From assembly GCF_001741865.1 (NCBI RefSeq), contig NZ_CP017147.1:2781001-2845000 (forward strand): 64,000 nt of DNA, written 5' to 3'. The stretch is from Bosea vaviloviae. GTDB lineage: Bacteria; Pseudomonadota; Alphaproteobacteria; Rhizobiales; Beijerinckiaceae. Positions 14,081 through 64,000 of this stretch are shown here, piece after piece (position 1 is the stretch's first letter; each line of letters opens with the position of its first letter). The notes beneath the pieces were generated by a model that ran no database searches, was not told where the DNA came from, and worked only from the letters and a program-made list of their open reading frames with translations. Position numbers and translations under genes: made by a program.

Positions 14081-14132
14081 GAAAGCGACCGGGTCAGTTC
14101 GCGTTCAAGAGTCTTTTCCATCCAGCCAGAGC

Positions 14133-14217
14133 CGTCATTGCGAGGAGCGTGAGCGACGAAGCAATCCAGGAGGGCTCACGCAAACCTCTGGATTGCTTCG
14201 CTTCGCTCGCAATGACG
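14133..14217. repeat. Palindromic repeat family 1 (CGTCATTGCGAGG), copy 1
   Basis: An 85-bp inverted element: CGTCATTGCGAGGAGCG at one end, GAAGCAATCCAG and CTGGATTGCTTC inside, GCTCGCAATGACG at the other. Related copies are at 20572 (half), 21765, 29458, 41494 and 46996, all between genes. Confidence 0.85.
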
Positions 14218-14270
14218 GAGTGGGGCCGGCCAAAATCATCAGGCTCGGAGAGATCGTTTGTCCCCATCGT

Positions 14271-18027: not shown

Positions 18028-18315
18028 ATGCCTGTGCTCGCATCGACAATCACCGCCAAGGGGCAGATGACGGTTCCGGTCGAGATCCGCCGGGCCTTGA
18101 ATTTGAAGCCGGGAGATCGCGTCGAGTTCGCGCTGTCGCCTGATGGGCGCGTTTTCCTGAGGGCGCTTAACCTTCCCATCGAAGCGCTTTTCGGGATGTT
18201 GTCGCATCTCACGGCCGATCCGGCCTATGCGGACGACGATGATGCGATCGCAGACCAGGTCGTAGCCGAAGATGAAGCGACCCTGCCTCCCAAGAAGCGC
18301 GGACGGGCTGCATGA
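18028..18315 (+). CDS. AbrB/MazE-type antitoxin
   Basis: A 95-residue protein whose first 50 residues are a swapped-hairpin AbrB DNA-binding domain (STITAKGQMTVPVEIRRALN, LKPGDRVEFAL). An acidic C-terminal arm and a basic end (PKKRGRAA) follow. The start at 18028 gives this domain directly; an in-frame start at 17986 would fall in the operator. It overlaps the PIN toxin gene by 4 nt. It probably represses its own promoter through the inverted repeat at 17972-18001. Confidence 0.87.
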   Translation: MPVLASTITAKGQMTVPVEIRRALNLKPGDRVEFALSPDGRVFLRALNLPIEALFGMLSHLTADPAYADDDDAIADQVVAEDEATLPPKKRGRAA

Positions 18316-18707
18316 TCGGATTGGATTCCAACGTTCTCCTGCGCGCCTTGATGAACGATGATCCGATCCACTCTCCCCTTGCACGCAACGTCTTGTCCCG
18401 GCTGTCGCCGCAGAAACGCGGCTACATCAATCTGGTCGTTCTGGCCGAGGTGACCTGGACCTTGGCGCGCAAATTCAAGGCGCCTCGCGACGAGATCCAC
18501 GAGATTGTGCGGTCGCTCCTGGGCGGCGAAAATCTGACGCTCGAAGCCCATGAGCGAGTCGGGCTCGCGCTCGATGTCGCGAAAGCGAATGGGAGTGGCT
18601 TCAATGACGCGCTGATCGGCGTGCTGAACCGGCACGCCGGATGCATGGAGACGATGACATTCGATCGCGGCGCTCCGTCGGAGGCCGGTTTTACGATTTT
18701 GACCTAG
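18312..18707 (+). CDS. PIN-domain toxin (VapC-like)
   Basis: A 131-residue PIN-domain protein. Active-site acids are visible in MIGLDSNVLLRALM, VVLAEVTWTLARKF, GSGFNDALIGVLN and TMTFDRGAP. The pair with an AbrB-type antitoxin resembles FitAB/VapBC systems. The stop codon TAG overlaps the first base of the dispersed repeat at 18707-18809, so the end of the gene may have been set by that repeat. The whole module lies between ureAB and ureC. Confidence 0.88.
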   Translation: MIGLDSNVLLRALMNDDPIHSPLARNVLSRLSPQKRGYINLVVLAEVTWTLARKFKAPRDEIHEIVRSLLGGENLTLEAHERVGLALDVAKANGSGFNDALIGVLNRHAGCMETMTFDRGAPSEAGFTILT

Positions 18708-18809
18708 AGCGATTTTCGATCCGATTGGATCGTTCAATTGCTCTAGGCCTTTGTTTTAACGCATTTTCTTCACGCGAACCGGTATCCACTTCGCTCGAAA
18801 ATGCTCTAG
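18707..18809. repeat. GAGC-type dispersed repeat, copy A
   Basis: A 103-bp element from GAGCGATTTTCGATCC to GAAAATGCTCTAG, containing TTCTTCACGCGAACCGG and TATCCACTTCGCTCG. It fills the whole gap between the PIN toxin and ureC. A homologous copy lies inside a coding sequence at 21351-21452, and a truncated inverted copy at 54758. Confidence 0.85.
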
Positions 18810-18822
18810 CCGGAGCCCAGCC

Positions 18823-20559
18823 ATGCCCTTTCCCTTCCCGCGCAACGCCTATGCCGCGATGTTCGGCCCCACCACCGGCGATACGGTGCGCCTCGGCGAT
18901 ACCGAGCTCGTCATCAAGGTCGAGAGCGATTTCACCACCTATGGCGAGGAGGTGAAGTTCGGCGGCGGCAAGGTCATCCGCGACGGCATGGGCCAGAGCC
19001 AGGTCCGCAATGCCGACGGTGCGGTCGATACCGTCATCACCAACGCGCTGATCCTCGACCACTGGGGCATCGTCAAGGCCGATATCGGCATCAAAGCGGG
19101 CCGCATCTGCGCCATCGGCAAGGCCGGCAATCCCGACATCCAGAGCGGCTTCGGCAATTTCGCTCCCGACGAGACCATCATCGTCGGCCCCGGCACCGAG
19201 GTGATTGCGGGCGAAGGCAAGATCATCACGGCCGGCGGCTTCGACAGCCATATCCATTACATCTGCCCGCAGCAGATCGAGGACGCGTTGATGAGCGGGC
19301 TGACCACCATGCTCGGCGGCGGCACCGGCCCGGCGCATGGCACGCTGGCGACGACCTGCACGCCCGGCCCCTGGCATCTCGGCCAGATGATCAAGGCGGC
19401 GGACGCCTTCCCGATGAACCTCGCCTTCGCCGGCAAGGGCAATGCGGCGCTGCCCGGCGCGCTGATCGAGATGGTCGAGGCCGGCGCCTGCGCTCTCAAG
19501 CTCCATGAGGATTGGGGTACGACGCCGGCCGCGATCGACAACTGCCTCTCGGTCGCTGACGATTACGACGTCCAGGTGATGATCCACACCGACACGTTGA
19601 ACGAGTCGGGCTTCGTCGAGGACACGATCAAGGCCTTCAAAGGCCGCACCATCCACGCCTTCCATACGGAAGGGGCGGGCGGCGGCCATGCGCCCGACAT
19701 CATGAAGGTGGCGGGGCTGCCCAATGTGCTGCCCTCCTCGACCAACCCGACGCGGCCCTTCACGGTCAATACGCTGGACGAGCATCTCGACATGCTCATG
19801 GTCTGCCACCACCTCTCGCCCTCGATCCCGGAGGATCTCGCCTTCGCCGAGAGCCGCATCCGCAAGGAGACGATCGCCGCCGAGGACATCCTGCACGATC
19901 TCGGTGCGCTATCGATGATGTCGTCTGACAGCCAGGCCATGGGCCGCGTCGGCGAGGTCATCACCCGGACCTGGCAGACCGCCCATAAGATGAAGGTGCA
20001 GCGCGGCCCGCTGCCGGAGGATGCCGGTACGGGGGCGGATAATTTCCGCGCCAAGCGCTATGTCGCGAAATACACCATCAACCCGGCGATCTCGCATGGC
20101 ATCTCGCGCCATGTCGGCTCCATCGCCGTGGGCAAGCTCGCCGATCTCGTGATCTGGTCGCCGGCCTTCTTCGGGGCCAAGCCGGACCTGATCATCAAGG
20201 GCGGCATGATCGCGGCAGCCCCGATGGGCGACCCCAACGCCTCGATCCCGACGCCGCAGCCGGTGCATTACCGCCCGATGTTCGGCGCCTTCGGCAAGGC
20301 CGTGACCTCGACCTCGCTGGTCTTCGTCTCGCAGGCTGCGATCGCCAACGGCCTGAAGCAGCGATTGGGCACCGACAAGGAGATGGTCGCGGTCGAGAAC
20401 ACGCGCGGCGGCATCTCGAAGAAGAGCATGATCCACAACGACGCCACGCCCGACATCCAGATCGATCCGGAGACCTATGCCGTGGTGGCCAATGGCGAAT
20501 TGCTGGTCTGCGAACCCGCCAAGGAACTGCCGCTGGCGCAGCGCTATTTCCTGTTCTGA
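18823..20559 (+). CDS. ureC: Urease alpha subunit
   Basis: A 578-residue catalytic subunit. The nickel centre is complete: [10 protein letters not shown], the carbamylated lysine in ALKLHEDWG (near 226), [13 protein letters not shown], and the active-site loop MVCHHLSP with the mobile His (near 328). It hydrolyses urea to ammonia and carbamate in complex with UreAB. The ATG at 18823 follows GGAG in the 13 bp left between the repeat and the gene. Being cut off from ureAB by about 1.7 kb, it may need its own promoter, or the operon is transcribed through the insertion. Confidence 0.97.
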
Positions 20560-20672: not shown

Positions 20673-21752
20673 ATGCAGCGCATCCCGCTCAACATCCAGA
20701 CGCTCTATGCCGATCTGCAGCAGCAGGTCGGGATGGCCTCGTCCGACGAGGCGACGGTCGTCGCCACGACGGTCGGCGGGATCAGCTATCTGCGCCTCCA
20801 GCGCTGGGTCGGCGCGAGCCGTACGATCGAGCATCTTGGCCGCGCCGACGATCCCGCGGTCATCGCCCGCGCCGAGGCGGCGAAAGCCGAGATGGCGCGC
20901 CGGCAGGAGCGACGCCGGCTCGTCTCGACCTTGCGGCGGCTCATCCCAGGTCCCACTGCGACGCTCGGCAAGGTGCTCGATGCTGTCGCCCATGCCGGCT
21001 TGTTCCGGCGCGGCGCGGTGCTGGTCGGAACGGCGGCCTATCAATGCTATCCGCCGCTTCTGGGCGCGATCCTGCCCTCCGCCACGGTGATGACGCAGGA
21101 TGCCGATCTTGCCACCGCCGACCTCGCGCTCGATGGCGAGGTCGCGGGAGACAGCATGATCGCGATTCTGCAAAGGGCCGATGCTAGCTTCACCGGCTTG
21201 CCTGGGCTCGATCCGAGGGCTCCGCCGGCGCGCTTCCGCAATGCCGAGAGCTTCGTCGTCGATCTCCTGACGCCGCAGCGGCGACGTTCGGATCGCAATC
21301 CGATGCCGCTCAAGGCGCTCGCTGCGGGAGCCGTTCCATTACAACATCTCGAGCAATTTCCGATCCAGTTGGAGCGCTCAATTGCTCTAGATCCTTGTTT
21401 TGACGCGTTTTCTTCACGCGAACCGGTATCCACTTCGCTCGAAAACGCTCTCGACTGGCTGATCGAGGAGCCCGTTCCGGCTGTCGCGCTGCATGGCGCG
21501 GGCGTGGCGGTCTCGCTCCCCCGCCCCGCACGTTTCGCGGTGCACAAGCTCATCCTGGCGCAGAAGCGCGGGGCGCATGAGGCCGCCAAGAGCCGCAAGG
21601 ACCTCGCTCAGGCAGCGGCGCTGGTCACGGCATTGCGGGAGGCCGCGCCATTCGAGTTGCAGGACGCGCTGGATGAAGCGCGCGCGATCGGCCGCGACGG
21701 TTGGGCGCGACCGATCGACCGATCCCTCTCTCAGATCGCCGCTCTAGCCTGA
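20673..21752 (+). CDS. GSU2403-family nucleotidyltransferase-fold protein with in-frame repeat insertion
   Basis: A 359-residue protein resembling the GSU2403 family (NTP_transf_8). Family-like parts are YLRLQRWVGASRTIEHLG, LVGTAAYQCYPPLLGA, the acidic MTQDADLATADL and the C-terminal ALHGAGVAVSLPRPARFAVHKLI. Between PMPLKALAAGAVPLQHL and LIEEPVPAVALHGAG, which I expect to be nearly contiguous in relatives, lie about 34 residues encoded exactly by a dispersed repeat (21351-21452), including [16 protein letters not shown]. The reading frame stays open. The role of the family is unclear to me; nucleotidyltransferases of this shape occur in toxin-antitoxin systems. Whether the protein still folds is unknown. 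Confidence 0.8.
   Translation: MQRIPLNIQTLYADLQQQVGMASSDEATVVATTVGGISYLRLQRWVGASRTIEHLGRADDPAVIARAEAAKAEMARRQERRRLVSTLRRLIPGPTATLGKVLDAVAHAGLFRRGAVLVGTAAYQCYPPLLGAILPSATVMTQDADLATADLALDGEVAGDSMIAILQRADASFTGLPGLDPRAPPARFRNAESFVVDLLTPQRRRSDRNPMPLKALAAGAVPLQHLEQFPIQLERSIALDPCFDAFSSREPVSTSLENALDWLIEEPVPAVALHGAGVAVSLPRPARFAVHKLILAQKRGAHEAAKSRKDLAQAAALVTALREAAPFELQDALDEARAIGRDGWARPIDRSLSQIAALA
21351..21452. repeat. GAGC-type dispersed repeat, copy B, in frame inside a gene
   Basis: Closely similar to copy A along its whole length (GAGCAATTTCCGATCC... TTCTTCACGCGAACCGG, TATCCACTTCGCTCG, GAAAACGCTCTCG). It is about 102 bp, 34 codons, without stop codons in the host frame. The terminal TAG seen in other copies reads TCG here. 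Confidence 0.85.
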
Positions 21753-21764
21753 GAACCGCTGCTC

Positions 21765-21851
21765 CGTCATTGCGAGCGAAGCGAAGCAATCCAGGAGGTC
21801 TAGCCCGACGCGCCCCTGGATTGCTTCGTCGCTTCGCTCCTCGCAATGACG
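21765..21851. repeat. Palindromic repeat family 1, copy 3
   Basis: A full inverted copy (CGTCATTGCGAGCGAAGCG to CTCGCAATGACG) between the convergent nucleotidyltransferase-fold gene and azoR. It may act as a bidirectional transcript end. Confidence 0.85.
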
Positions 21852-21868
21852 GGATGGGCTTCCCGTGG

Positions 21869-22492
21869 TCACGCCGCCTTCGGCAGGGTCGGCTTGAGCG
21901 CGGCGGCGGTCTCCTGCGCGCTCGCCAGCGCGGCCTTGCGGTGCTCGGGGCTGAAGCCGATGCCCTCGGCGCGGATGAACTCGACATCGCTGATGCCGAT
22001 GAAGCCGAACAGGGCGCGCAGATAGGGCTCCTGGAAATCAAGCGGTGCAGCCGGCGCGCCGGGCCCGTAAAGATTGCCGCGTGCGACGGCGATGATGACG
22101 CGCTTGCCGCCGGCCAGTCCCTGGGGGCCGTTCTCCGAATAGCTGAAGGTCTTGCCGCGGACGGCGATACGATCGATCCAGGCCTTGAGCTGGGTCGAGA
22201 TGGTGAAATTGTACATCGGCGCGCCGATCACGACGGTATCGGCCGCGAGGAACTCGTCCATGATCGCCGTGCTGGTGGCGACCTCCTGCTGGAGCGCCTC
22301 GCTGCCCGGCGCGCCGGCGGCGGCGGCGAGATAGGCGCCGGACAGATGCGGGACGGGATCGGCGGCAAGGTCGCGATAGGTCACGTCGAGGCTCGGATCG
22401 GCCTGGCGCAGGCGGGTGACGATGGCTGCCGAAACCTCGCGGCTGGCCGAGTTGTCGCCGAGGATGCTGGAGTCGAGATGAAGCAGTTTCAT
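21869..22492 (-). CDS. azoR: FMN-dependent NADH-azoreductase
   Basis: A 207-residue flavodoxin-fold quinone/azo reductase. It opens [20 protein letters not shown] (phosphate-binding loop for FMN). It contains [19 protein letters not shown], the flavin-binding segment of AzoR, and AVARGNLYG. The start at 22492 has AGAGAGG upstream. It is divergent from an HxlR regulator across 76 bp, a frequent pairing in which the regulator responds to reactive electrophiles or quinones. Confidence 0.94.
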
Positions 22493-29415: not shown

Positions 29416-29457
29416 ACGATGCCCGCGATCCGCAGCATGATCAGCACGAGCGCTTCC

Positions 29458-29544
29458 CGTCATTGCGAGGAGCGTAGCAACGAAGCAATCCAGAGGACTG
29501 GGCCCTACGCCCCCCTGGATTGCTTCGCTGCGCTCGCAATGACG
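29458..29544. repeat. Palindromic repeat family 1, copy 4
   Basis: A full copy (CGTCATTGCGAGGAGCGTAG to GCTCGCAATGACG) between nrtA and the FAD reductase gene. Such hairpins within operons often change mRNA stability so that the binding protein is made in excess. Confidence 0.85.
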
Positions 29545-29560
29545 GCGGGGGCCTGATCGC

Positions 29561-41204: not shown

Positions 41205-41601
41205 CATAGCTTCGCGGGTCGGGGCGGGCTTTGCGCGCGATGGGCATAGCAGGGCTCAAACCCGGTAAAGCAGCCTCGGTGTCCGGTGGACTCCCCTGGC
41301 TTCGGCCCCGCCATCGGCTCGGCTCTATCGACGACAGCAACCGCCAGCCACAGGCTGGAGCGCGGCCGTTCAAATCCCTGCTGGTCCTGCGGGCGGATCT
41401 GCGCCCGCTCGGCCGCTCCCGGCACTGGCGCGGCCACCGCAGGCTGATCCGCCAGCGGGAACGCCGTTAGTGCATTTTCTGTTCAGCTTGCCCCTCATTG
41501 CGAGGAGCGTTAGCGACGAAGCAATCCAGGAGGGCTCGCTCTACGCCTCCTGGATTGCTTCGCTGCGCTCGCAATGACGGTGTAGCCCACTCCCGGAAGC
41601 C
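41205..41601. other. 397-bp intergenic region
   Basis: It holds a family 1 repeat at 41494-41579. An open frame of 79 codons at 41231-41470 is Arg-rich and has no ribosome-binding site, so I do not call it. Nothing else is recognised. Confidence 0.5.
41494..41579. repeat. Palindromic repeat family 1, copy 5
   Basis: A full copy (CTCATTGCGAGGAGCG to GCTCGCAATGACG) just beyond the stop codon of the minus-strand RpiR gene. Confidence 0.85.
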
Positions 41602-46995: not shown

Positions 46996-47119
46996 CGTCA
47001 TTGCGAGGAGGCAAAGCCGACGAAGCAATCCAGGGACCGCCGAGCGAGCCCTCCTGGATTGCTTCGCGGAGCCTGTACTCGGGCTTGCCGAAGGCAAGAC
47101 CCGGGTGCTCGCAATGACG
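46996..47119. repeat. Palindromic repeat family 1, copy 6, expanded
   Basis: Outer ends CGTCATTGCGAGG and CTCGCAATGACG match family 1, but the right half carries about 35 extra bases (GGAGCCTGTACTCGGGCTTG... region), themselves with inverted CGGGCTTGCC/GGCAAGACCCG parts. It lies between the binding protein and phosphoesterase genes. Confidence 0.75.
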
Positions 47120-54143: not shown

Positions 54144-54759
54144 GGCATTGCCGAGCGAAACCGGACTGACGACCGGCAGAGCGCTTGCCCGCCGAACGCG
54201 CATCCTGTCATTCGGGGGCAGGCGACACATCTTTGCCCTTGAGGAGCCGTTCTGGACCAGCCTTGAACAGATGGCCGCCCGGCAGTCGGTCAAGCTCAGT
54301 CAGCTGATCAGCATGGTGCTCGCCGAACATGCCGGAGAGAACCAGACCTCTCTCCTTCGCGCCGCCGTCGTCAGATGGCTCCTTGATGAATGCGACCGAC
54401 ACTATGCCATTCTGTTGTCGTCGATCCGCGGGATCCTGTCCGCCATTCCAGCACCAGCCGTCGCGATGACGGACAAGCAGCAGGTTATCGCGCAAAACCT
54501 GCCTTTCGCCCGTCTTCTCGATGAGCGCCTGCAAAGTGAAGGCGATACGAACCCGGAGCTGACGCTCAGGCTGAATGTGCCCCCGGCTCGGCTGATCGCA
54601 CTGCTGACGGTCGACCCGCATCGCGCGATTGGCGTTCCCTTCACGCTTCGCTCCTCAATTCGGAAGATCAGCGGCATCATGAACACGTCCGTCATCGACC
54701 CCACGGGAGAAAAACCGGTATTCATGTGCGTTGTGCGCAGCGTCGAGGGCGTAAACTAG
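54133..54759 (+). CDS. Ribbon-helix-helix domain protein coupled to the adaptor gene
   Basis: A 208-residue protein. Residues about 30-85 match the RHH_4-type ribbon-helix-helix domain (RRHIFALEEPFWTSLEQMAA, LSQLISMVLAE, SLLRAAVVRWLLDE). The C-terminal half resembles a PAS-like fold (AIPAPAVAMTDKQQVIAQNL, then TLRSSIRKISGIMNTSVI). A GTG start overlaps the HlyD stop by 11 nt, so it is translationally coupled. It is probably a dedicated regulator of the secretion locus. The stop TAG overlaps the dispersed repeat at 54758. Confidence 0.75.
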   Translation: MSAEALPSETGLTTGRALARRTRILSFGGRRHIFALEEPFWTSLEQMAARQSVKLSQLISMVLAEHAGENQTSLLRAAVVRWLLDECDRHYAILLSSIRGILSAIPAPAVAMTDKQQVIAQNLPFARLLDERLQSEGDTNPELTLRLNVPPARLIALLTVDPHRAIGVPFTLRSSIRKISGIMNTSVIDPTGEKPVFMCVVRSVEGVN

Positions 54760-54816
54760 AGCGTTTTCGAGCGAAGTGGGCACCGGTTCGCGTGAAGTAA
54801 ACGCGTCAAAACGACA
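54758..54816. repeat. GAGC-type dispersed repeat, truncated, inverted
   Basis: AGAGCGTTTTCGAGCGAAG, GGCACCGGTTCGCGTGAAG and AACGCGTCAAAACGA correspond to the right half of copies A and B on the opposite strand. It starts on the stop codon of the RHH gene. Confidence 0.75.
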
Positions 54817-54922
54817 GCCTCGAGGCTGCAAGGAACCATAGGGTCGATTGAGATAGGGTTGCGCGTCAATGGGGCCGCGCCCAAAAGCTTGGCTTTTGCG
54901 CAAGAGCGTCCTGCGATGCCGA

Positions 54923-59130: not shown

Positions 59131-59580
59131 TCACAATTCAAGAGAGTGCCCCAGCGGTAACCACATCCAATCTCCATCCAGCGGAGAATTGACGCAGACC
59201 GTGACCGAATTGTCGCTATCGAAAGCGCGGTTCAACGCAACCGACAGCAACGGCTCTGGCGAGATCCCATCTTCGGGCGGCATCAGCCGCAGGGCAGCCA
59301 ATGCGACGTCACCGGCTGGATCGACAAGCAGTTCGGCCAAGGCTGGGGCAGGCATATCCAAGCCTTGCACAGCCAAGCCTTGCACATCCAGGCCTTGCAC
59401 ATCCAGGCCTTGCACATCCAGGCCTTGCACATCCAGGCCTTGTATATCCAAGCCTTGCATGTCCAAGCCTTGGCTTCGCGCGGCTTCCATCACGACCGCA
59501 AGCGGCAACGGGTCCTCGACAATGTCGGCGAGGGAGAAGACTGCCGAAATGACCTCCGGCGTTGTGTCGTCAGCCGACAT
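59131..59580 (-). CDS. Unknown protein with eight tandem QGLDV repeats
   Basis: A 149-residue protein without signal peptide or membrane segment. Residues about 37-76 are eight consecutive five-residue repeats of the type QGLDV (QGLDM, QGLDI, four QGLDV, QGLAV, QGLDM). The flanks are folded-looking: FSLADIVEDPLPLAVVMEAA before, LAELLVDPAGDVALAALRLM and WMWLPLGHSLEL after. The repeat does not follow the A(D/N)Lxx pattern of pentapeptide-repeat proteins, although the period is the same. It lies 50 bp downstream of the adhesin gene on the same strand and may be co-transcribed with it. Confidence 0.6.
   Translation of the reverse strand: MSADDTTPEVISAVFSLADIVEDPLPLAVVMEAARSQGLDMQGLDIQGLDVQGLDVQGLDVQGLDVQGLAVQGLDMPAPALAELLVDPAGDVALAALRLMPPEDGISPEPLLSVALNRAFDSDNSVTVCVNSPLDGDWMWLPLGHSLEL
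59352..59471. repeat. Eight 15-bp tandem repeats in coding DNA
   Basis: The unit CCTTGCACATCCAGG repeats eight times with few changes and encodes the QGLDV repeats on the minus strand. A period of 15 keeps the frame, so copy number can change without a frameshift. Confidence 0.9.
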
Positions 59581-59636: not shown

Positions 59637-62600
59637 TTAGGTCACCGTAACATGAGGCTGGTTTTCGTCGAAGATGATTGCGACCTGACCCGCGCCGGGT
59701 GCCGCGGAAAACGTTGCGACTGTGACGAAGGCATTGCCCGCGCCAATGCCGTCAGCGTCGACCTGAAGCTGCGTACCGACAATGTTGGTCGCGGCGTCGG
59801 CCTGCGCTGCGTCCGTCGGCTTGTTGGCGCCAAGCGAGTTAAAGAGGCTCGAGAGATCGACCTTGTCGCCTTCGGCCAGATTATAGTCGGTTATCAGATC
59901 CGGCAGCGCTGCAGACAGTTTCGTTGGGTCGATGATGAAGATATCGGCGGCTGCGCCACCGGTGAGGGTGTTGAAGCCGGTTCCTCCCGAAAGCGTGTCG
60001 GTTCCGCCGCCACTCGACAGGATGTCATTCCCAGCCCCGCCTATGATGACGTCAGCGCCGGACGAGCCCGTCAGCAGATCATCAAAAGCAGATCCGATGA
60101 CACCTTCTATGTTGCGATAGCTATCGGTTCCAAGCCCGGGAGCCGACGCGGCGGTCGCGCTGGAGCTCTGGACGATCGTGAAATTGACGGCCGAACTGGC
60201 ATCGCTGAAGTCGATCAGGTCGATCCCGTTGCCGCCATCGATGATATCGTTGCCGGCTCCGCCGCGAAGCGTGTCGTTGCCATCGCCGCCGTTGAGAACG
60301 TCATTGCCGGCGCGGCCGATGATGATGTCATGACCTCCGCCACCTGACAGATTGTCATTCCCGGACGTGCCATAGATCTGGTCGGCGAGCGTGGCGTCGC
60401 CGCTGACCAGAATGCCGGCATCGCCAGGGTCGTTGTAGAAGAACTCGAACCTGGCGAGGCGTGCCTGGAAATTCCCGCCATTATTGTCAAAGTAATTCAG
60501 CGTCCAGCTATCGCCGGCGGCTGGAGGGTTCGCCGTAAGGAAAGCAGCGAGGGTCACCCCCGTGGCCACGCCCACTCCATTCAGCAGGAAGATATTGGAG
60601 TAGCTGACGGTGGCTTCCATCAGGCCGCTGGTTGCGTTGTAGAACCAGCTTTGCTCGAACGTTCCGGCGGTCGTATCGTCCTCGACGATGACAAATTTGT
60701 TCCCGCCGATCCAGAGCTCGACCTGAACCTCTCTCTCGCGCGCGCTGCCGGCGCTCCCGCCATCGGCAAAGGTGGTCGGGTTCTGTTCGTCTCCAGGGCC
60801 AGGGCCTCCAGGGACCGGCGTCACAATGGGGTTCTGCTGGAAATCGGTTGCGACCCTGATCGTCGCCCCCGAAAGGTTGGCCGTGATGCCATCCACGAAA
60901 GCCTGTGTCAGGGCGAGCGCGGATTGCTGGTTGTTGCCGGATGTCAGGGGCGAGTTCCCGTCTCCGACCTCGCTTGATGTCGCGGGCAGCCGGTTCGGCG
61001 CGACTTCGTGAACGGTGACGGAGTAGTTGACCGGCGTGGTTCCGTCCGTTGCCGAGAGCTGCAACACGGTCGTGGGCGTGTCGATCAGGCCCGCGGTCGG
61101 GCGATAGACGAGATCGTCGAGCAGGTTGATGCCGGCGCTGGGGTTGTAGAGCACCGTATTGGCCGCCAAGGCGACATAGCTGACGCCGTTGAAGTAAAAT
61201 ACGCCGGTCGGTGCGTTCGTCGCGGTGACGATGACATTCTCGACATCGACATCTGTCGGGATGCTCGCCAGCAGGGGATATCCGTTTGTGTAACCGGGCG
61301 TCTGCTGGGACGGGTCGCTCGACAGCCAAACCTGGGTGTTCGCGGCGACCGGCGCGTCGTTCTTTCCGTTGATCGTAATCGTCAACGTCGATGGCGATGG
61401 GTCGCCATCGCCATCCGCCATCACATAGGAGAACACCTCGGTTCGGGTCTCCCCGTCATCGAGCGTTTGAACGGCGTAGCTCGCATTGTTGAGGGTATAG
61501 CTGTAGGAGCCGTCGGCATTCAAGGTCAGCGAGCCATAAGTGCCGACCAGCGCAGTCCCCACCGTGCCCGCGGTTGCGCCGAATGAGACCGCGACCACCG
61601 ACGCTCCATCAGCGCCTTTGGTGTCCGCAACGCCATCCGTTGCGTTGACGTCAGCTCCTCCCAGACCCGTCAGCACATTGCCGTCGGCGACAAGCGGCCC
61701 GTCCTCGGTGACGCTGTCGGTATCGGGACGGGCGGTTGGCCCGTCGTCGAGGAACTGCAGGGCAGCGCCGATCTGGGCTGTGGCCGTGGTGCTGTCATTG
61801 TCGCGATCGGTGATGGTCGCGGTCAGGGTGACCAGGCCCGCCGCCAGGCTGACGGGATCGTTGGGATTGGTCGCGTCGGGATGGCTCAGCGCGCGGATCT
61901 GGTCGAGCGTGACCTGGCCGGCTGCGTCGACCGTGACGGTGAAGACGAGCAGGTTGGAACCCGCGGTGCGGCCCTCGACCACGGTGCCGTTCAGCGAGAG
62001 CACGACGTTCTGGCCCGACGCGACGTCGATCAGGCCCGAGGCCGCCGCGGTGACGGCGAGCGCATAGGTGGTGGTGCCGGCGCCGTCGGCGCCATAGGCC
62101 GGGGTGAACAGCCCCGAGAACGAGGCCTGGGCGTCCGCCGCCAGATTGGTCTCGTCGACGACGAGGCTGGGCGCGACGACGGCGTTGCGCACGATCGAGG
62201 GCCCGTCGTCGAGGAACTGCAGGGCAGCGCCGATCTGGGCTGTGGCCGTGGTGCTGTCATTGTCGCGATCGGTGATGGTCGCGGTCAGGGTGACGAGGCC
62301 CGCCGCCAGGCTGACCGGGTCGTTGGGATTGGTCGCGTCGGGATGGCTCAGCGCGCGGATCTGGTCGAGCGTGACCTGGCCTGCGGCGTCGACCGTGACG
62401 GTGAAGACGAGCAGGTTGGAGCCGGCGGTGCGGCCCTCGACCACGGTGCCGTTCAGCGAGAGCACGACGTTCTGGCCCGACGCGACGTCGATCAGGCCCG
62501 AGGCCGCCGCGGTGACGGCGAGCGCATAGGTGGTGGTGCCGGCGCCGTCGGCGCCATAGGCCGGGGTGAACAGCCCCGAGAACGAGGCCTGGGCGTCCGC

Positions 62601-64000
62601 CGCCAGATTGGTCTCGTCGACGACGAGGCTGGGCGCGACGACGGCGTTGCGCACGATCGCGGGCCCGTCGTCGAGGAACTGCAGGGCAGCGCCGATCTGG
62701 GCTGTGGCCGTGGTGCTGTCATTGTCGCGATCGGTGATGGTCGCGGTCAGGGTGACGAGGCCCGCCGCCAGGCTGACCGGGTCGTTGGGATTGGTCGCGT
62801 CGGGATGGCTCAGCGCCCGGATCTGGTCGAGCGTGACCTGGCCGGCTGCGTCGACCGTGACGGTGAAGACGAGCAGGTTGGAGCCCGCGGTGCGGCCCTC
62901 GACCACGGTGCCGTTCAGCGAGAGCACGACGTTCTGGCCCGACGCGACGTCGATCAGGCCCGAGGCCGCCGCGGTGACGGCGAGCGCATAGGTGGTGGTG
63001 CCGGCGCCGTCGGCGCCATAGGCCGGGGTGAACAGCCCCGAGAACGAGGCCTGGGCGTCCGCCGCCAGATTGGTCTCGTCGACGACGAGGCTGGGCGCGA
63101 CGACGGCGTTGCGCACGATCGCGGGACCGTCGTCGAGGAACTGCAGGGCAGCGCCGATCTGGGCTGTGGCCGTGGTGCTGTCATTGTCGCGATCGGTGAT
63201 GGTCGCGGTCAGGGTGACCAGGCCCGCCGCCAGGCTGACGGGATCGTTGGGATTGGTCGCGTCGGGATGGCTCAGCGCGCGGATCTGGTCGAGCGTGACC
63301 TGGCCGGCTGCGTCGACCGTGACGGTGAAGACGAGCAGGTTGGAACCCGCGGTGCGGCCCTCGACCACGGTGCCGTTCAGCGAGAGCACGACGTTCTGGC
63401 CCGACGCGACGTCGATCAGGCCCGAGGCCGCCGCGGTGACGGCGAGCGCATAGGTGGTGGTGCCGGCGCCGTCGGCGCCATAGGCCGGGGTGAACAGCCC
63501 CGAGAACGAGGCCTGGGCGTCCGCCGCCAGATTGGTCTCGTCGACGACGAGGCTGGGCGCGACGACGGCGTTGCGCACGATCGCGGGACCGTCGTCGAGG
63601 AACTGCAGGGCAGCGCCGATCTGGGCTGTGGCCGTGGTGCTGTCATTGTCGCGATCGGTGATGGTCGCGGTCAGGGTGACCAGGCCCGCCGCCAGGCTGA
63701 CGGGATCGTTGGGATTGGTCGCGTCGGGATGGCTGAGCGCCCGGATCTGGTCGAGCGTGACCTGGCCGGCTGCGTCGACCGTGACGGTGAAGACGAGCAG
63801 GTTGGAGCCCGCGGTGCGGCCCTCGACCACGGTGCCGTTCAGCGAGAGCACGACGTTCTGGCCCGACGCGACGTCGATCAGGCCCGAGGCCGCCGCGGTG
63901 ACGGCGAGCGCATAGGTGGTGGTGCCGGCGCCGTCGGCGCCATAGGCCGGGGTGAACAGCCCCGAGAACGAGGCCTGGGCGTCCGCCGCCAGATTGGTCT
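59637..64000 (-). CDS. Giant RTX adhesin exported by type I secretion, C-terminal part
   Basis: The last 1454 codons of a very large protein; the frame is open to base 64000. From the window edge inward come 154-residue repeats of the T1SS-143 type (VVDETNLAADAQASFSGLFT, ITDRDNDSTTATAQIGAALQ), about 4.9 copies. A VCBS-like domain follows (SYSYTLNNASYAVQTLDDGE, then ITINGKNDAPVA), a 300-residue region of unknown fold, and RTX calcium-binding nonapeptides (GGDGNDTLRGGAGNDIIDGG, and later GGAGNDILSSGGGTDTLSGG). It ends with a type I secretion signal region (LITDYNLAEGDKVDLSSLF). It should be the substrate of the ABC/HlyD/TolC genes nearby and perhaps of the LapG-like protease. Confidence 0.93.
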   Translation of the reverse strand, partial: TNLAADAQASFSGLFTPAYGADGAGTTTYALAVTAAASGLIDVASGQNVVLSLNGTVVEGRTAGSNLLVFTVTVDAAGQVTLDQIRALSHPDATNPNDPVSLAAGLVTLTATITDRDNDSTTATAQIGAALQFLDDGPAIVRNAVVAPSLVVDETNLAADAQASFSGLFTPAYGADGAGTTTYALAVTAAASGLIDVASGQNVVLSLNGTVVEGRTAGSNLLVFTVTVDAAGQVTLDQIRALSHPDATNPNDPVSLAAGLVTLTATITDRDNDSTTATAQIGAALQFLDDGPAIVRNAVVAPSLVVDETNLAADAQASFSGLFTPAYGADGAGTTTYALAVTAAASGLIDVASGQNVVLSLNGTVVEGRTAGSNLLVFTVTVDAAGQVTLDQIRALSHPDATNPNDPVSLAAGLVTLTATITDRDNDSTTATAQIGAALQFLDDGPAIVRNAVVAPSLVVDETNLAADAQASFSGLFTPAYGADGAGTTTYALAVTAAASGLIDVASGQNVVLSLNGTVVEGRTAGSNLLVFTVTVDAAGQVTLDQIRALSHPDATNPNDPVSLAAGLVTLTATITDRDNDSTTATAQIGAALQFLDDGPSIVRNAVVAPSLVVDETNLAADAQASFSGLFTPAYGADGAGTTTYALAVTAAASGLIDVASGQNVVLSLNGTVVEGRTAGSNLLVFTVTVDAAGQVTLDQIRALSHPDATNPNDPVSLAAGLVTLTATITDRDNDSTTATAQIGAALQFLDDGPTARPDTDSVTEDGPLVADGNVLTGLGGADVNATDGVADTKGADGASVVAVSFGATAGTVGTALVGTYGSLTLNADGSYSYTLNNASYAVQTLDDGETRTEVFSYVMADGDGDPSPSTLTITINGKNDAPVAANTQVWLSSDPSQQTPGYTNGYPLLASIPTDVDVENVIVTATNAPTGVFYFNGVSYVALAANTVLYNPSAGINLLDDLVYRPTAGLIDTPTTVLQLSATDGTTPVNYSVTVHEVAPNRLPATSSEVGDGNSPLTSGNNQQSALALTQAFVDGITANLSGATIRVATDFQQNPIVTPVPGGPGPGDEQNPTTFADGGSAGSAREREVQVELWIGGNKFVIVEDDTTAGTFEQSWFYNATSGLMEATVSYSNIFLLNGVGVATGVTLAAFLTANPPAAGDSWTLNYFDNNGGNFQARLARFEFFYNDPGDAGILVSGDATLADQIYGTSGNDNLSGGGGHDIIIGRAGNDVLNGGDGNDTLRGGAGNDIIDGGNGIDLIDFSDASSAVNFTIVQSSSATAASAPGLGTDSYRNIEGVIGSAFDDLLTGSSGADVIIGGAGNDILSSGGGTDTLSGGTGFNTLTGGAAADIFIIDPTKLSAALPDLITDYNLAEGDKVDLSSLFNSLGANKPTDAAQADAATNIVGTQLQVDADGIGAGNAFVTVATFSAAPGAGQVAIIFDENQPHVTVT
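61741..64000 (-). repeat. Tandem 462-bp repeats in the adhesin gene
   Basis: Unit boundaries fall at about 61741, 62203, 62665, 63127 and 63589; the last unit runs off the window. The units differ at only scattered bases (for example GATCGAGGG or GATCGCGGG before the CCCGTCGTCGAGG boundary). Identity at silent positions points to recent duplication or gene conversion. Confidence 0.95.

Follow-up and report, generated by a model that had tools for sequence, protein, structure and literature searches.

The Rickettsia palindromic elements (RPE) and the comparable elements of Wolbachia are dispersed repeats of ~100–150 bp that occupy intergenic DNA and also conserved genes unrelated to one another, where they are read in frame, and the passages on them in PMC2229807 and PMC10969869 present the inserts as apparently tolerated by the host proteins. 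Frames fused to host genes are also ascribed, in the relevant part of PMC2229807, to ERIC/RU-1 and to the 107-bp Correia element, which are small MITEs with TA termini; the same part describes RUP of Streptococcus pneumoniae as a 107-bp MITE with IS630-Spn1-like terminal inverted repeats and TA targets. As far as these passages go (PMC2229807, PMC10969869), in-frame MITE insertion is already known from RPE, the Wolbachia elements, ERIC, and Correia, and its hosts include Rickettsia, Wolbachia, some enterobacteria, and Neisseria, Rickettsia being the best-known case. The element described here, from Bosea vaviloviae, is like RPE a palindromic repeat found in frame in unrelated proteins, four in our case; it differs from RPE in its hosts (Bosea and relatives), in the number of copies in genes (3 of 134, as against the 19 Rickettsia reading frames given in that part of PMC2229807), and in that most ends of its copies carry TA and that an IS630 element is possibly its partner. 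The likeness to RPE, to which the first-pass annotation of this DNA had pointed, holds as an analogy, which three further in-frame insertions strengthen.

RUP is the nearest mechanistic parallel, but it is entered without an open reading frame in the table of PMC2229807, and, unlike the case of RUP and IS630-Spn1, no intact partner insertion sequence was found in the Bosea genome. ERIC/RU-1 and Correia differ from the Bosea element in length and belong to other bacteria. The RIME elements (Rhizobium-specific intergenic mosaic elements) are, like the Bosea element, intergenic repeats, found in rhizobia according to the part of PMC2573895 that deals with them, and the two may be identical. Br-REP1 and Br-REP2 of Bradyrhizobium are likewise palindromic intergenic repeats, from a related family; their consensus, as displayed in the section of PMC5082802 concerned, differs by eye from that of the Bosea element. 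We found no description of the Bosea element in the titles and abstracts of the literature searched, nor its strings or peptide in full texts. The Bosea genome shows in-frame insertion with lineage-specific events, with empty sites at the DNA level, and with an explicit arithmetic by which 100 + 2 bp make 34 codons.

The window analyzed is a stretch of 64,000 nucleotides of the B. vaviloviae genome (NZ_CP017147.1, positions 2,781,001 to 2,845,000), and positions below are counted within it unless a contig is named. The host gene (20673–21752, + strand), recognized from the ORF list, Pfam, and an alignment with 21 relatives, encodes a protein of 359 aa, insert included. It matches PF12281 (NTP_transf_8) with E = 3.2e-60 and 204.2 bits against a cut-off of 26.3, and some of its relatives in databases are annotated as "GSU2403 family nucleotidyltransferase fold protein." NCBIfam and PADLOC gave no match for the protein, and a PDB search with a model of its inserted form gave none at E ≤ 0.001. 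The insertion occupies 21351–21452, i.e., 102 bp or 34 codons, and the frame stays open through it. It consists of a 100-bp core, GAGC...GCTC (21351–21450, + strand, delimited by alignment of element copies), which translates in frame to 33 residues, with one base left over that opens a further codon, and a right-hand TC (21451–21452). This TC equals the TC at the left end (21349–21350), i.e., the target site, and comparison with the empty sites marks the two as a putative target-site duplication. The core differs from the element consensus at seven positions and from its nearest neighbor among 49 copies with a 100-bp core at four. That a repeat lying between genes elsewhere recurs inside this gene had been claimed from inspection, and the alignment of 18704–18807 with 21348–21451 bears it out, at 88% identity over 104 bp; the positions then given for the two copies (the intergenic core being 18707–18806) were also right. 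A further remark, that the terminal TAG of intergenic copies reads TCG here, has no reading-frame meaning, since the bases are read as CTC GAC here and would be read as CTA G.. in the other copies, which leaves that TAG out of frame.

To establish the state of the locus in relatives, we aligned 21 proteins out of 120 taken from 570 found. All 34 insert columns are missing in 21/21, the gap falling between QH and LDWLIEEP, and each of the 120 is at most 344 aa long. Outside the insert, the nearest, P0001 of Bosea sp. LjRoot9 (325 aa), is set apart by three residues, counted by eye in this alignment. The expected gain of about 34 residues without a break in the frame was thus confirmed: no relative in the alignment has the insert residues, and the host ORF has no frameshift or stop that would mark a pseudogene. 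The segments AVPLQHL and LIEEPVPAVAL, which had been expected to be adjacent once the insert is removed, are indeed close together in the empty protein but not directly joined, as DW stands between them (AVPLQHL-DW-LIEEPVPAVAL). At the DNA level, empty sites are present in four genomes (L061, L062, L063, and L068; L066 and L282 duplicate L061, and L067 duplicates L063), which include Bosea psychrotolerans and B. lathyri. There the sequence is CATCTCGACTGG or a close variant, while the filled site reads CATCTC-GAGC...GCTC-TCGACTGG, a net gain of 102 bp.

A 33-base core pattern, searched with up to three mismatches, occurs at three places in the window (0.00 expected) and at 125 places in the genome (0 for a reversed-pattern control). 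A census of the DNA around the first 100 of these places and some others, 2.06 Mb including the window, yielded at least 134 distinct copies, whole or partial, at ≥40 bits; 84 of the 134 are near full length, and many of the remainder are without the left part. These are MITE features: the element is short, with a 100-bp core, has no transposase, and exists in many dispersed copies. The intergenic copy (18707–18806, + strand, defined by copy alignment and a fold z of −4.77) lies between a PIN-domain ORF and ureC and is flanked by TA at 18705–18706 and 18807–18808. A partial copy in the window (54756–54824, − strand; nhmmer model positions 38–106, 60.1 bits) comprises the right ~70 bp alone. 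Folded as single-stranded DNA, the in-gene element forms a left hairpin (21351–21387) and a right hairpin (21405–21448), with z = −2.76 for the whole element on the + strand and −3.14 on the − strand; both full window copies fold as two hairpins with a linker (z from −2.76 to −4.77). The element is modular, the right ~70 bp being found also alone and across the order. A GANTC site in a hairpin loop, a feature of the Caulobacter/Brucella intergenic repeat (CIR), does not characterize the element: only 10 of the 49 cores have GANTC at the place where it is most frequent. Two side observations concern the intergenic copy. The TAG stop of the PIN-domain ORF (18312–18707) comes from the element, at 18705–18707, so that this insertion determines where the protein ends. 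An Rfam search of 18657–18814 (− strand) gave sub-threshold matches to the Brucella sRNAs CI27 (E 0.11) and CI153 (E 0.06) over this copy, which we did not count as hits; transcripts of related elements may in some cases have been annotated as sRNAs.

The same element was found in frame in three further unrelated proteins, adding 34 residues to each, with relatives empty. One is an FAD/NAD(P) oxidoreductase of the same genome (C1:5069897–5071660). Homologues in G049 and G006, 90–91% identical, are uninterrupted and without the insert, while that in G052 has it; the G052 match contains one TGA over residues 1–588, and its open ORF of 529 aa begins after the TGA. The insertion is shared with Bosea sp. 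OK403, whose oxidoreductase P0130 is 503 aa as annotated, insert included. The second, a cyclopropane fatty acid synthase (C1:479881–481590), carries the element antisense; in G049, G052, and G006 the site is empty, with exactly 34 residues fewer, and NCBIfam NF053839 matches it in two stretches with 593.3 bits, just under the cut-off of 600. The third is the metagenomic protein P0131, in which the element comes between blocks that adjoin each other in G178, G101, and G209, genomes from another family of the order; direct alignment shows the 34 residues missing in 3/3.

To separate copies in genes from copies between them, we scored codon usage in both flanks of ORFs that span a copy. Ranked by the poorer flank, the four ORFs on top are those of the synthase, the oxidoreductase, the G052 orthologue of the latter, and the window gene, and the fifth is already negative. 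The score of the window gene (0.12) is weak and also circular, because the 1,486 training codons of the model include its own upstream part. Among the 134 copies of the genome, nine lie between two flanks that both look coding on the same strand, and just three of these keep one frame across; a copy in a gene whose codon usage is unusual would escape these counts. One of the other six (18704–18809) sits between two genes.

Long ORFs across copies (≥150 aa) number 37 in one list and 28 in another, of which 20 and 11, respectively, were scanned with Pfam; 22 of these 31 are without a match and nine have one. In six, the element stands upstream of the domain, and we provisionally read these as upstream ORF extensions: GntR/FCD (L135), SBP_bac_3 (L096), shikimate dehydrogenase (L117), inositol phosphatase (L130), DapB (L271), and AstE_AspA (L272). 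L255 (804 aa) and L261 were considered as in-gene cases, which the codon score did not uphold. Protein searches with the insert region returned nine and four hits, with P0130 and P0131 as the clear internal cases; since the searches reach proteins of 0.55–1.75 times the query length, these counts give no measure of how rare inserted proteins are. By eye, the insert peptide is at or near an end in P0127, P0128, P0129, P0122, and P0132, and P0133 looks frameshifted. P0121 and P0123–P0126 have no Pfam entry. The annotated N-terminus of P0132 opens with the element peptide, ahead of an EipB-like domain (five member sequences), and its start site is perhaps wrongly annotated. The peptide at the ends of P0127, P0128, and P0132 looks like a misread extension, and more generally the 16-letter peptide of the element can serve annotators as a mark of transposon-derived segments.

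The ends of the 84 full copies were then examined for the mode of insertion. The core from GAGC to GCTC is 100 bp long in 49 of them, 99 in 13, 101 in 7, and of other length in 15, so that 3n+1 holds in 56/84. TA flanks the core on the left in 49/84, on the right in 40/84, and on both sides in 29/84. Left and right dinucleotides are equal in 38 copies, against 26.3 expected by permutation (p = 0.00015), and unequal in 46, while exact 3-bp flanking repeats occur in 2. Empty sites at other loci fit a 2-bp duplication, with substitutions at some copies; at the synthase insertion the sides are TG and TC and hence not identical. These data favor entry of the element at a TA-like dinucleotide, which would thereby be duplicated. 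Because the commonest element, of 100 bp, plus a 2-bp duplication gives 102 bp, any reading frame would be preserved. Whether the translation is free of stops depends on which of the six frames is used, as the 49 cores of 100 bp support: sense frame 0 is open in 47 and antisense frame 2 in 43, nearly always therefore, and the remaining four frames in 22, 16, 13, and 0. The four in-gene copies use sense frame 0 and antisense frame 2 only. We regard it as improbable that the element is shaped for coding sequence, with its length held at 3n+1, which together with a 2-bp target duplication avoids a frameshift, and one stop-free frame per strand, and seeds 34-residue segments; were it so, it would be a reading-frame-compatible transposon making new protein variants across Hyphomicrobiales.

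We consider it very probable that the gene received its insert by the transposition of a non-autonomous, palindromic element (MITE). In the mechanism we propose, a two-hairpin element of ~100 bp with GAGC...GCTC ends would insert at a TA-like dinucleotide of a conserved gene; duplication of the dinucleotide would bring the gain to 102 bp, or 34 codons, with the frame open; an IS630-family transposase would be the mobilizing enzyme; and the 34 residues would be carried in the protein as an unselected linker. The last two steps are inferred, and we take them in reverse order.

The oxidoreductase, which has the insert in two species, allows selection on insert and flanks to be compared. Between the own genome and G052, the upstream flank shows 43 synonymous and 41 non-synonymous changes (dN/dS 0.33; this part may include ~26 codons before the annotated P0130 start), and the downstream flank 24 and 14 (dN/dS 0.20). 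The insert has 6 non-synonymous changes and 1 synonymous, against 55 to 67 in the flanks (Fisher p = 0.052, from a small count). The inserted gene is constrained, and the insert is not visibly so. The two inserts differ at 7/102 sites, close to the 8.0% of the flanks, whereas pairs of 100-bp copies within the own genome have a median of 18 differences per 100, with 5% of pairs at ≤8; a single shared insertion is therefore likely. The gene tree (G000, G052, G049, and G006) has support of only 63–64, too poor for loss, lineage sorting, and transfer to be told apart as histories of that insertion. From the mostly non-synonymous change in this insert between constrained flanks, we infer that the 34 residues act in the protein as an unselected, tolerated linker.

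For the window protein itself, a less favorable outcome is a serious possibility, if not the one we would bet on: the protein may be damaged or inactivated, its frame remaining open just because the event is recent and 102 bp cannot shift the frame. In the AlphaFold model of the uninterrupted P0001 (47 alignment rows), which is confident throughout (mean 93.1), the site is predicted to fall between a strand (218–223) and a short helix (226–229), in the folded core and beside the conserved P222, Q224, and W228. The model of the inserted protein (22 rows) has a mean of 77.7, with residues 201–254, including ~25 before the insert, below 50; with 22 rows against 47, part of this loss of confidence may be due to the thinner alignment. 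The three differences from P0001 outside the insert would have left little time for decay, and a match to P0001 in 26 of 67 genus genomes suggests a family member that the genus can dispense with. Against damage, the protein is outside those three substitutions identical to P0001, with Q142, D143, and D145 among the columns invariant in 22 rows, and in two species the gene of the oxidoreductase, an analogous case, has stayed under purifying selection with its insert in place. That same persistence, at a divergence like that of the flanks (7/102 vs. 8.0%), could be taken to mean that the peptide has gained a function by exaptation, as a linker or as a segment for interactions; we think this very unlikely, as the ratio of 6 to 1 in the insert against 55 to 67 is what lack of constraint would give, small though the count is. 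Good conservation of the peptide across element copies could likewise be read as the trace of an ancestral, functional protein segment to which the dispersed repeats are unrelated or from which they derive. This has next to nothing left in its favor: the segment is present in 0/21 aligned relatives, the empty sites in DNA refute it, three other unrelated proteins contain the same stretch, and only 3 of the 134 copies have flanks that look coding in a single frame to either side. Insertion of a MITE, with the added residues tolerated as a linker, thus remains our reading, and the natural pairs of inserted and empty genes make the effect of such an insertion on a protein testable.

As to the mobilizing enzyme, an IS630-family transposase is suggested by other Bosea genomes, where several IS630-like elements measure ~1,045 bp and have inverted ends that begin TA-GAGC, as both ends of the present element do; together with the TA-like 2-bp flanks of the copies, these ends in sister genomes lead to the reading as an IS630-type MITE. 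DDE_3, the IS630 domain, is matched in 38/67 genus genomes, with no match in G006 and G052, and its counts per genome do not track element copy number; the own genome yielded one DDE_3 fragment (E = 9e-8) and no intact IS630 gene. Inverted ends were sought without a motif at the 22 DDE_3 loci for which both flanks are complete, and the best pair starts TAGAGC, or AGAGC right after its T, at L326 (21/24, 1,050 bp), L331, L338, and L339, contains the TAGAGC motif at L335, and is without it at 17/22; a motif-guided search added L333, L336, L341, and L345. Beyond TA-GAGC, nine pairs of 1,041–1,050 bp resemble the element weakly, in 10–20 of 28 letters, six of which the motif-guided search had itself sought, and L346 agrees in 22/28 at one end, its other end not being found. 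With no more than a DDE_3 fragment in the own genome and a weak likeness beyond TA-GAGC, an IS630-family transposase is a candidate mobilizer. In G025, an IS630-like element (L361) abuts a copy of the element, with one TA in common. L361 (G025:C1:971500–976000) is 1,050 bp long and has its transposase in two overlapping frames. Movement of the element as a REP/REPIN-type repeat by a RAYT (Y1 tyrosine transposase) is improbable. Y1_Tnp is found in 6/67 genus genomes, among them four of the five with the highest copy numbers (Fisher p = 1e-4), but the four are close relatives by host-gene identity, so that the association is not independent. None of eight Y1_Tnp loci (some overlapping, ~1.5-kb flanks) holds a copy even at E ≤ 10, on which account we reject RAYT mobilization for now, and G025 has at least 117 element matches with no Y1_Tnp. 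The own genome contains three tandem RAYT-like Y1_Tnp matches (L287 and L293, C1:3105870–3106888), which seem to be accompanied by a different, separate family of repeats.

The 34-residue translation of the element is matched in 45/67 genus genomes, five of which have at least 116 matches among the about 117 candidates scored per genome at most, and its DNA in 40 of 199 sampled genomes of the order, judged from the best four candidates per genome, mostly by the right part. Fifteen plasmid records match, four of them, from Bradyrhizobium, at 83% over the whole length. To all appearance the element belongs to an old Hyphomicrobiales family of modular build, which has gone through bursts in some Bosea.

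The window contains several other repeats and features. A second dispersed palindromic family, CGTCATTGCGAG...CAATCCAGG, occurs at 14132–14224, 21758–21877, 29432–29551, 41492–41586, and 47021–47066 and resembles the CGTC-tagged REPs of alphaproteobacteria as outlined in part of PMC3733652. Rfam RF02514 (5′ ureB sRNA) matches above cut-off at 18975–19285 (− strand), on the strand opposite ureC, and may simply reflect the conserved urease coding sequence. A 15-bp tandem repeat array lies at 59337–59486, and near the window end, at 61738–63885, is a large tandem array of five 300-nt units spaced 462 bp apart and 98–100% identical.
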